Assembly (NCBI GenBank): GCA_944320765.1
Contig: CALUIS010000008.1
Location: forward strand, 51,161 to 115,160
DNA length: 64,000 nucleotides
Reading direction: 5' to 3'
DNA from: an uncultured Paraprevotella sp.
GTDB lineage: Bacteria > Bacteroidota > Bacteroidia > Bacteroidales > Bacteroidaceae
Shown here in pieces: positions 19,916 to 60,039 of the stretch. A program made the translations under genes and the position numbers. The notes under the pieces were generated by a model, which saw only the letters and a program-made list of their open reading frames with translations, was not told the DNA's origin and searched no databases. Position 1 is the stretch's first letter. The number at the start of each line of letters is the position of its first letter.

Positions 19916-19944
19916 AGGGCGGCGGGAAATCCCAAATTCCATTT

Positions 19945-20390
19945 TGTCAAAACGTCAAAACCGGCCTCGCGAGAATCGCGCGGGCGGGAGCAAGGGCGGG
20001 GACGGACGGAAATACGCGAATCTCGCCGGCCCGCAGGAATGCAGGATGAAAGCCGGAAGCCGGGTTGCCGCGACGCTTTGCCTCCCGCTGCGGGCCGCCG
20101 TGCGGACGGGTGCCGCCCCCGCGTCAGCCGGATGGGGAAAATGCCCGCAAAAGGACAAATGGATTTTGCACGCGAAAAGCCTCCAATTAGAAGGAAAAAG
20201 CCGCCCGAAGCCCCGTTTTTCCCCGCTTTCCACACGCCCGTGAATTTCTTTGCGGCAAGAAATCCGCGTCTTTGCGGCAAGAAGAAAATTTCTTTCAGCA
20301 AAGAATTTCCGTTTTTGCCGCACAAAAACGGGCAATGAGGCGGGGAAATGCTCCATGCGGACAGTTTTTCCGCCCGTTTTTTAACACTTC
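19945..20390 (+). repeat. Dispersed ~450-base element, copy A
   Basis: First of three related noncoding copies. It starts at TGTCAAAACGTCA (19945) and ends at CGTTTTTTAACACTTC (20390). Shared blocks in order are CGCGAGAATCGC, GGAAATACGCGA, GCCGCCCGAAGCCCC, the CTTTGCGGCAAGAA hairpin cluster (20244-20325), GGGGAAATGCTC and the terminal CGTTTTTTAACA. It fills most of the 604-base gap between GH97 and the convergent helicase gene; nothing else is seen in the remaining flanks. Confidence 0.82.
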
Positions 20391-20519
20391 AGGGCCTATT
20401 CCCGCCCTTTCATTCCTCCGTGCGGACGCGGGACGGGGTGGAAAGGCTGTCTTTTTGACAGGAAGTCCATAGGTTTGATGACATTTTGTAATTGCTAACC
20501 GGGAGGCTGCTCCTCGCCG

Positions 20520-35839: not shown

Positions 35840-35895
35840 CCGGGAGGTCCTCCGGGCGGACGCTCCCTTGCGGCCCGGCGCGGATGCTTTCAAAG

Positions 35896-36350
35896 TGTCA
35901 GATGGTCAGACGCGGCGGCGCGTGGGGCGCGTGTACGGGACGAAAGCCGGAGGCGGGCGGAAATGCGCGAGTCTCAAGGCATTGCGGGAAAACGTTTTGC
36001 TACGTTTTCCCGCTTTTTGTTGGCATCTTGTCGGCGGTGGGCGGCCGTCCTGCGCACAAGGCGGCGGGCCGTGTCGCCCGTTCCGCCCTTCGGGTGGCAA
36101 TCCGTCATCCGGATTTTGTATGCCGCCGCGTCCCGTCTGGAACGGAAAAGCCGCCCGAAGCCCCGGATTTTCCGGTTTTCCACACTGCGTGAAACTTCTT
36201 TGCGGCAAGAAATCTTCGTCTTTGCTGAAAGAAATTTTTTTCTTTCAGCAAAGAAATTCCATTTTTGCCGCACGAAAAGCGCCGCCGTTCCGGAGAAATG
36301 TATTATACGAGCATTTCTCCGGCGTTTTTCCCGGCGTTTTTTAACACTTC
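35896..36350 (+). repeat. Dispersed ~450-base element, copy B
   Basis: Second copy, same orientation as copy A. It begins AAGTGTCAGATGGTCAGACG and ends CGTTTTTTAACACTTC. It shares AAAAGCCGCCCGAAGCCCC with copy A word for word and has the same TTCTTTGCGGCAAGAAATC...CGTCTTTGC block. Its central hairpin is a 16-base perfect inverted repeat (36219-36234 with 36239-36254). A second hairpin pairs CGGAGAAATG (36291-36300) with CATTTCTCCG (36312-36321). It fills most of the 733-base gap between rubrerythrin and the BNR-4 gene. Confidence 0.82.
35984..36018 (+). terminator. Terminator-like hairpin in repeat copy B
   Basis: GCGGGAAAACG (35984-35994) pairs perfectly with CGTTTTCCCGC (36003-36013) and is followed by TTTTTG. 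It lies 145 bases after the rubrerythrin stop and is the first good terminator for that gene. Confidence 0.65.
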
Positions 36351-36507
36351 CTTTCCGGAAGCTCCCTTCCCGGATTTGTGGCGGAAAAGGGAAAGTGGGC
36401 GTTTCCTTTCGTTTTGATAGCGGATGGCGGATTCGTGCCGACATTCTGTCAATGGGGCCCCTTGCCTGTCCCGTTACGCCCGGCCTGTGTGAAAATGCCG
36501 CCGGAGA

Positions 36508-47925: not shown

Positions 47926-47930
47926 CATTG

Positions 47931-47999
47931 TGTTTTTCATGGTATTAGATTTAAGGTTAATGGAAGATTGGTTGTCGAGATGACAACCTTCTTTTTTTT
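47931..47999 (+). ncRNA. Candidate small noncoding RNA of about 70 bases
   Basis: The stretch begins just after the promoter -7 box and ends in a terminator: GGTTGTC (47970-47976) pairs with GACAACC (47982-47988), followed by TTCTTTTTTTT. The 5' half is AT-rich and contains CATGGTATTAGATTTAAGG, a block I associate with noncoding RNA candidates in Bacteroidales, though I could not check this. The only frame from its ATG (47939) is short and without coding character. Start and end are estimated to within a few bases. Confidence 0.6.
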
Positions 48000-48036
48000 A
48001 CCCTCTTTCCTTTCTCGGAAAGAGGGTAATTTTTTT
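48000..48036 (+). terminator. Second terminator after the small RNA candidate
   Basis: ACCCTCTTTCC (48000-48010) pairs perfectly with GGAAAGAGGGT (48017-48027) around a 6-base loop, followed by AATTTTTTTT. Confidence 0.75.
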
Positions 48037-59335: not shown

Positions 59336-59572
59336 GGGCTTTTTTGTCACATTCTTCTTTTCCGCGGACGATTTATTCCCGTTCGGGCGGCATTTCCGTT
59401 CCGCCGCGGGGGCCGTGGCGGAACGGGAGGAGTGGTTCGGTGTGGGGGGGCGAAGGCCCGCGACAAGGATGTCATGATGTATCGGGTATTCCGGATTTTC
59501 GTATCAAAAAGAAAGGGTTTCGCCGGAATCCGTGACAGGTCTTTGGCGCATGAAGCACAAACCAGGACGCCG

Positions 59573-60015
59573 GTTGTTAAAAAACGGGCGCGGGAACTGC
59601 CATATACGAGCATTTCTCCGCCCAAATCCCGGTTTCTTTGCGGCAAGAAATTTGCGTCTTTGCTGAAAGAAATTTGTTTCTTGCCGCAAAGCGGTGGGAA
59701 GTTCTTTGCCGGATGCTGATTTTTTGTCCGGAAAAACGAAACAATGGGGCTTTGGAAGGCTTTTTTCCTCCTGGATGGAGTGTCTTCCCCGGCAGGAATG
59801 GGGAAGCGGTTTGTCACCGTTTCCCCATTCCTGCTGACGCGCCGGCCCGGCCCGTGCGCCGGACGCGGGCGGCTGGCGCACGGAATGCAAGGGAATCTGC
59901 TGTTTGGCTGACATTCCGCTCATCCTGCACCCGTGAAATACGGTCGTATTTCCGACCGTCCTTTCCTTCCGCCCGGAATATGCGATTCTCGCGGACCGTC
60001 CGTGACATTTTGACA
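59573..60015 (-). repeat. Dispersed ~450-base element, copy C (reversed)
   Basis: Third copy, opposite orientation. On the minus strand it reads from TGTCAAAATGTCA (60003-60015) through CGCGAGAATCGC, GGAAATACG, AAAAAGCC...AAAGCCCC and the CTTTGCGGCAAGAAA hairpin block to CGTTTTTTAACAAC (59573). The central hairpin here is an outer pair of perfect 15-base arms (59636-59650 with 59677-59691). A private hairpin pairs 59792-59809 with 59817-59834, 17 of 18 matching. It lies in the 821-base gap before the MurU-like gene. Confidence 0.82.
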
Positions 60016-60039
60016 ATTTGGCAGAATGTATTATCTTTG
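60009..60039 (+). promoter_or_regulatory. Promoter of the MurU-like gene, overlapping the end of repeat copy C
   Basis: TTTG at 60009-60012, a 19-base spacer and TATCTTTG at 60032-60039. The TTTG lies inside the terminal TGACATTTTGACA of the repeat. The ATG of the gene is 59 bases downstream. Confidence 0.6.

Follow-up and report, generated by a model that had tools for sequence, protein, structure and literature searches.

Three intergenic gaps of the window, the whole 64,000-nucleotide stretch of DNA analysed here, hold sequences that align with one another as copies of one repeat family. They were named c1 (19939..20491, plus strand), c2 (35890..36451, plus strand) and c3 (59476..60023, minus strand). 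c1 adjoins a helicase gene, c2 has a rubrerythrin gene as its left neighbour and c3 lies next to a nucleotidyltransferase gene. c1, a core unit of the repeat, belongs to the c1 subfamily (profile match 19939-20488, 539 bits), while c2 (35890-36448, 387 bits) and c3 (60023-59476, 364 bits) belong to divergent subfamilies; as the profile was built from 69 aligned places of the source genome, c1, c2 and c3 included, the bit scores of its own copies are inflated. The initial annotation had described the three gaps as related, and the alignment, the pairwise matches and the profile hits at all three bear this out. The only Rfam family reaching its gathering score in the window is FopS (RF04319, a family of paralogous Bacteroidetes small RNAs), with 82.7 bits at 47930-48000 on the plus strand; none did so over the repeat, and a known Rfam RNA was therefore rejected for the copies.

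The left end of the element carries TGTCA and GTCA words, often as TGACAnnnTGTCA in divergent copies; in c1 these words, conserved across the aligned copies, read TGTCA AAA CGTCA (19945..19957, +). Domain A comes next, with CGCGAGAATCGCG and then GGAAATACGCGAnTCTCG about 30 bases on. Its first half in c1 is the palindrome CGCGA GAA TCGCG (19968..19980, +; 12-mer CGCGAGAATCGC), and its second half is GGAAATACGCGAATCTCGCC (20008..20027, +), where the domain A profile, R2, also matches other genomes of the genus. A variable middle leads to a GAAAAAGCC..GAAGCCCC block and then to three 15-bp boxes, set at 22- and 19-bp steps and located by box search. In c1 these are CTTTGCGGCAAGAAA at 20248..20262 (+), a box with 1 mismatch at 20270..20284 (+), 22 bp after box 1, and the inverted CTTTGCTGAAAGAAA at 20289..20303 (-). 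The boxes of c2 were found at 36198-36212 (+), 36220-36234 (+) and 36239-36253 (-), spanning 36198..36253, and those of c3, by box search and alignment, at 59677-59691, 59658-59672 and 59636-59650 on the minus strand, spanning 59636..59691. The arrangement is thus ++- in c1 and c2 and +-- in c3.

The boxes are followed on their 3' side by a small second hairpin, then by the terminator-like hairpin and its T-run, and finally by about 100 more bases. The terminator-like hairpin was read at 20339..20382 (+) in c1; it occupies, together with CGTTTTTTAACA, 36286..36346 (+) in c2, where sequence, covariation and fold support a 13-pair core stem, and 59573..59625 (-) in c3, as read in the sequence. 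The initial annotation had put the right end of the element at this T-run, which instead belongs to the hairpin: conservation runs about 100 bp past the CGTTTTTTAACA T-run, as far as CTTTTTGACAG...TGACATT, often present as TGACAnnnTGTCA in divergent copies. The true right end is a TGACAnnnTGTCA-like palindrome that resembles the left end, and was read as GACATTTTGTAA in c1 (20480-20491, +) and as GACATTCTGTCA in c2 (36440-36451, +). Because the earlier right end is a terminator-like hairpin and not a terminus, the inverted repeats first named as the termini have to be replaced by these matching palindromes.

The source genome (G000) comprises 2.93 Mb in 48 contigs, of which sixty stretches and the window, 1.248 Mb in total with neighbouring stretches overlapping by 500 bases, were scanned. 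Among named relatives, the HisB protein of the window came closest to that of an uncultured Paraprevotella MAG (79% identity, from a list that may omit the source genome), which suggests a Paraprevotella-like bacterium of the Bacteroidales. The profile gave 35 matches above 60 bits, 28 of them 540-559 bp long, so that a rough extrapolation from the scanned DNA suggests about 80 copies per genome. Of the earlier description, a fixed length and fixed ends at about 450 bases, the near-constant length holds; the size and the right end do not. The repeat unit is a gene-free core of about 550 bp. Open reading frames drawn mechanically do span the gaps, but none with a coding-like score was centred inside any of 63 copies (6 of the 69, truncated or at contig ends, being left out, and genes being called by a simple codon-score method). 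A hidden gene in the repeat was rejected on this basis, in agreement with the earlier remark that no copy carries a convincing gene. Among the 56 copies with both neighbours called (7 more lacked one), the flanking genes were convergent in 19, divergent in 10 and in tandem in 27, and the left-hand gene was directed into the element in 35.

Used as queries, c2 matched c1 over 139 bases (E 4e-33) and c3 matched c1 over 117 bases (E 3e-17), in both cases in the part from the boxes to the terminator. Such short matches are what a chance likeness of GC-rich intergenic DNA, limited to short hairpin words, might give, c3 and c1 resembling each other over little more than their boxes and terminator. 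This reading is hardly tenable. The c1 query found at least 40 places in the source genome (40 of 105 candidates scored), most of them 73-86% identical across most of the unit. Both c2 and c3 retrieved additional divergent copies, two of which match c3 at 71% across its whole length, and the copy at C19:27602-28054 bridges c1 and c2, with 76% identity to c1 and 70% to c2 over most of its length. The boxes argue in the same direction. With up to 2 mismatches CTTTGCGGCAAGAAA occurs 10 times in the window (0.14 in shuffles), 9 of the 10 within the three copies, and TTTTTTAACA occurs three times, once in each copy (0.02 in shuffles). Across the 1.248 Mb of the source genome, 81 exact boxes lie inside copies and 0 outside, and 95 one-mismatch boxes inside and 3 outside; for domain A, the exact 12-mer gave 22 inside and 0 outside, and a 13-mer with one mismatch 37 inside and 1 outside. 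A similarity limited to short hairpin words, the outcome against which the initial annotation had set its claim, is refuted by the full-unit matches and by this exclusivity of the boxes.

Conservation is uneven along the unit. In 25 divergent copies, mean pairwise identity was highest in the boxes (75%) and the terminator (69%), followed by the left palindromes and the second hairpin (66% each), domain A (59%), the GAAAAAGCC block (58%), the middle (49-50%) and the right TGACA stretch (48%); it was 38% immediately past the terminator and 31-33% in the flanks. Similarly, mean pairwise identity among 30 c1 copies was 87% at the left palindromes but 31% in the adjoining upstream sequence, and 71% at the right TGACA stretch but 37% downstream of it. 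That the boxes and domain A are conserved and exclusive to the copies suggests that they have a binding partner. In two G012 copies (L364 and L347) domain A seems, by eye, to be inverted with respect to the other parts of the element. Taken with the differing box arrangements of c1 and c3, this suggests DNA-binding modules rather than parts of an RNA.

The initial annotation had also considered a family of structured RNAs, and this part of its proposal survives for one hairpin and for some copies. Covariation in the terminator stem was analysed in 16 divergent copies, picked from the 61 with a recognisable hairpin for their divergence from c1 and not for pairing, a set that leaves out the c3 copies and the closer c1 copies. 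In these 16 copies we counted 16 doubly changed cells, against 8.3 +/- 1.9 after shuffling (0/500), with a covariation of 0.208 against 0.110 shuffled (0/500), and 88% of cells were paired, against at most 54% when the stem was slid. The number of stem pairs with a double change in the same set, five, was not above that in the shuffles (4.0; 128/500). When set out in this layout, most c1- and c3-type copies show poorer pairing in the outer stem. The covarying hairpin, with its T-run, is predicted to stop transcription. In a scan, terminator-like sites as such were no more frequent than in shuffles (2 against a mean of 1.7).

As whole sequences, c2 and c3 fold far better than their shuffles (z -8.7 and -5.9, respectively), but c1 folds little better (z -1.4, with 9/100 shuffles as good). 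On the box region RNAalifold found one covarying pair of 16, and domain A, laid out as a stem, appeared by eye to be conserved rather than covarying. One long folded RNA common to all copies was rejected on account of the c1 fold and the weak RNAalifold result in the box region. The copies might still be host RNAs or regulatory sites, 3' UTR and terminator modules selected in place, with mobility playing a minor part. The covarying hairpin, the folds of c2 and c3, the identity of the boxes and terminator well above that of the flanks, the frequent orientation of the left-hand gene into the element, and the existence of in-place orthologues all accord with such a reading. We nevertheless regard it as improbable, given the c1 fold, the single covarying pair of the box region, the absence of an Rfam family and two results from the comparison of genomes described below, namely differences in presence and absence and an in-place orthologue that has changed faster than its surroundings.

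The element is spread through the genus. When c1 was searched as DNA against 60 relatives, 5 gave matches, all of them within the genus. Two profiles were then applied to 18 genomes of the genus, source and model genomes included: R1, covering the boxes to the terminator, has matches in 10, and R2, covering domain A, in 13. R1 was built from G000 and G007, and R2 from G000, G007, G009, G012, G014 and G017, so these genomes match by construction. For R2, more than 50 matches each were found in G000, G007, G012, G014 and G017, strands being counted apart; because hits on either strand enter the counts of both profiles, these do not give copy numbers. On reading, some of the weak R1 matches in G004 and G015 did not resemble the element, and for R2 the matches in G005 (E 0.007) and G016 (E 0.004) are marginal. 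Box sequences vary by species, and the order of the parts appears constant by eye. The profile search of the genome and its relatives proposed in the initial annotation thus returned matches in both.

Sites were compared using 19 G012 loci and 18 G014 loci. The clearest pair concerns the c1 site: between the same two genes, one of them the helicase gene (protein identity 46.8% and 64.6% between the two genomes), G014 has a 598-bp gap with a copy and G007 has 23 bp. In the source genome c1 adjoins the same helicase gene, in the orientation opposite to the G014 copy and with a different left neighbour. In addition, five distinct G012 sites have both flanks adjacent in the scanned 1.248 Mb of the source genome, and all five are empty here, with gaps of 119, 2, 312, 40 and 30 bases. 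The corresponding G012 intervals measure 1.0-2.7 kb; in four of the five an ORF of 250-419 codons is present as well, which makes the difference bigger than the element, and only at L406 is the difference element-sized. Empty sites, for which the initial annotation had suggested looking in sister strains, were found between related species, cleanly in the G014/G007 pair and with an extra ORF at four of the five G012 sites. Beside the rubrerythrin gene no element was detected in G007, G014 or a Paraprevotella MAG, and beside the nucleotidyltransferase gene none in G007, G012, G014 or G017.

The element is also inherited in place, as at least 10 of the 19 G012 copies have a counterpart in the G014 set, recognised by element and flanks (by a single flank in three cases). 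At the site L002/L427 the source genome and G014 both carry a copy, oriented alike. Shared occupancy of this kind, like that of the c1 site in opposite orientations, would seldom arise by random insertion. L029 of the source genome and L122 of G007 form an in-place orthologous pair, in which element windows are 74-88% identical and most flank windows 92-98%. The element thus changes faster than its neighbours, which, like the differences in presence and absence between genomes, is at odds with host RNAs selected in place.

Gene order around the copies differs between genomes. In G007 and G014 the genes flanking c1 are separated from each other, and so are those flanking c2; both c3 neighbours were found in G012 only, on different contigs. 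Homologous recombination between copies may have caused these breaks of synteny at c1 and c2, and perhaps at c3. At another locus, L183/L504 on C18 of the source genome and L387/L505 on C3 of G017 are 97-99% identical from the left palindrome of a truncated copy through a gene, and the similarity of L183 and L387 declines downstream to 97, 94 and then 79%. This looks like a recent exchange with its breakpoint at the element. A cargo-carrying form was considered for this locus and dropped, since the similarity declines and a search of that stretch gave no other end of the element, which fits recombination better. We also observed a second repeat, a hairpin of about 65-90 bases with GACAGAAGAACAAAAGGACA-like arms that adjoins the ends of the main element. 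It is present in G012 and absent from G014 at two sites (L407, about 2200-2300, versus L423; L409, about 2060-2135, versus L430), and it also occurs at L399.

In G007, a genome of the same genus, about 40 c1-like places were found (40 of 69 candidates scored). Conservation extends further in this genome, and a unit of about 757 bp is bounded on either side by the inverted repeat GGCTCAGTAGAAATyCAGTGGGG. We examined 34 loci and set aside 12 without a recognisable end and 1 duplicate, which left 21 copies with both ends; an 8-bp target duplication scoring at least 6/8 was present in 11 of these, five of them exact, and the other 10 scored below 6/8. Mispaired flanks used as a control reached this level in 7/420 cases (1.7%). 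G007 also carries an insertion sequence (IS) with the same ends, about 1.4 kb long and with two genes. Their products are an ISAon1-family N-terminal protein (120.9 bits) and a transposase (528.6 bits) of the ISL3 DDE type, the families and domains matched being NF049916, NF049917 and PF01610 (ISAon1 family, ISL3 group). Compared by eye, the right end of the IS resembles the left arm of the G007 unit, whereas to the right of the core the two have just the terminal repeat in common. The core itself shows no likeness to the IS, and the repeat holds no transposase. Derivation from an ISAon1/ISL3 element by internal deletion was rejected, only the left G007 arm being IS-like. Since G012 and G014 have the core but no ISAon1 ends, the core is more than an IS that has lost its middle; in G007 it seems to ride between ISAon1 ends. 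In the same genome, the 3' part of an ISAon1-type transposase gene and the terminal repeat are duplicated in tandem behind an IS (L318, about 1523-1890 on C9).

In the source genome, ISAon1-type ends were found at ten contig ends. The exact 16-mer CAGTAGAAATTCAGTG survives at the right end of the copy L014, and weaker ISAon1-like right ends in the correct orientation are present at L002, L020 and L023, making four of the 30 c1 loci; a fifth weak end, at L016, points the opposite way. No target duplication was detected in any of the 26 c1-type copies of the source genome, whose ends are eroded, c1 being among those without one. The target-site duplications raised in the initial annotation are thus found in G007 but not among the c1-type copies here. 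Nor were duplications seen, by eye only, at the palindromes. At the 37 G012 and G014 loci there were no ISAon1-type ends, one weak match per set lying more than 1 kb from the element; the G012 and G014 copies read do carry TGACAnnnTGTCA-like palindromes. An ISAon1-type IS is apparently inserted in a repeat copy at L291 (the end of C2) and L297 (the end of C20). AAAACTTG adjoins the IS end on both the C20 and the C2 flanks and is an 8-bp duplication if these contig ends belong together; its presence on both sides indicates that contigs C2 and C20 probably join there.

We consider it probable that the repeat is a MITE-like, nonautonomous mobile element whose core, about 550 bp long, contains no gene. 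An ISAon1-type (ISL3) transposase likely mobilises it in trans; this would apply at least to the G007 lineage and probably to the c1-type copies of the source genome as well. The assignment follows from copies being present in one genome and absent from another at corresponding sites, together with the IS-type ends and the target duplications. The copies are short, repeated and without a transposase gene. In G007 their ends match those of a resident ISAon1-type IS, with IS ends also at contig ends of the source genome, and orthologous sites are filled in one genome and empty in another, G014 and G007 giving one such case and the G012 comparison five more. The terminal inverted repeats are clear in G007, remain as remnants at the four c1 loci here and were not found at the 37 G012 and G014 loci. 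The nonautonomous mobile element put forward in the initial annotation therefore finds support in the dispersed gene-free copies, the G007 duplications and ends, and the empty sites. The ISAon1 transposase would act on the ends of the element. The hairpin, if it stops transcription, could make insertion behind genes tolerable, and the boxes and palindromes may bind a protein needed either for movement or for a role in the host.

The G012 and G014 copies, which lack ISAon1-type ends, require a different mover or an older route. One alternative, to which we give somewhat less than an even chance, is that the core forms an element by itself, with TGACAnnnTGTCA ends and a mover of its own, and that ISAon1 ends were captured secondarily in one lineage. 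Conservation in the source genome stops near the palindromes on both sides, the G012 and G014 copies read have palindromes and no ISAon1-type ends, the G007 orthologue L122 lacks the IS-derived arm, and the boxes and domain A are absent or nearly absent outside copies, all as an independent core would have it. Against it, we saw no autonomous element bearing such ends and, by eye, no target duplication at the palindromes, and the four c1 copies that retain ISAon1-like right ends have them in the correct orientation. A further proposal goes beyond this one and is possible but doubtful: the core would be a self-standing nonautonomous class and not an IS remnant, defined by its own TGACAnnnTGTCA ends, the palindromic domain A, a species-specific and flippable three-box array and a compensated terminator hairpin, and it would persist in the genus by coevolving with a trans-acting binding protein, hitch-hiking on captured ISAon1 ends.

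Under the preferred reading of a MITE-like element moved in trans, the family bears on how such elements last. MITEs are usually viewed as short-lived leftovers of IS that decay. Here a repeat of near-fixed length is matched by profile dozens of times per genome in at least five species of the same genus, its core is kept while its ends change or vanish, and its exact motifs are exclusive to the copies in the scanned DNA. Since core, length and motifs are all kept, the family offers a natural test of whether selection on the interior can keep a bacterial nonautonomous element, and also of which protein, if any, reads its boxes. In addition, the repeat probably accounts for some of the assembly breaks and genome rearrangements in these species.

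A literature search, which covered few subscription papers, returned no description of this repeat family. The ISAon1-family IS has the same terminal sequence as the G007 copies, and its apparent insertion in the source genome has an 8-bp repeat. Small dispersed nonautonomous elements are known from Streptococcus pneumoniae, namely SPRITE, RUP and BOX, of which SPRITE is terminator-like, with a sequence resembling a rho-independent terminator, according to a review of prokaryotic MITEs (PMC10969869); they belong to a different phylum and are likened to the present repeat by description, not by sequence. The nearest described parallel that we found is the BrickBuilt MITE of Porphyromonas gingivalis, present in 19 copies with an array of varying length and IS5-type ends (PMC4596501). 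Like our repeat, BrickBuilt is gene-free, intergenic and found in Bacteroidales, its ends match those of a resident IS, and its sites are largely common to strains; its own layout begins with a leader and closes with a tail, between which lies an array of repeats of about 23 nt (PMC4596501). Membership in BrickBuilt was rejected, as there is neither a tandem array of about 23 nt nor ISPg1-type ends, but three boxes and ISAon1-type ends instead. Compared with BrickBuilt by description and not by sequence, the present repeat is more numerous and varies little in length. Its three 15-bp boxes, set at steps of 22 and 19 bp, occur in either of two arrangements; it also possesses a palindromic domain A as a separate part and a terminator-like hairpin that covaries, and its ends, of the ISAon1/ISL3 type, are clear in one species only.
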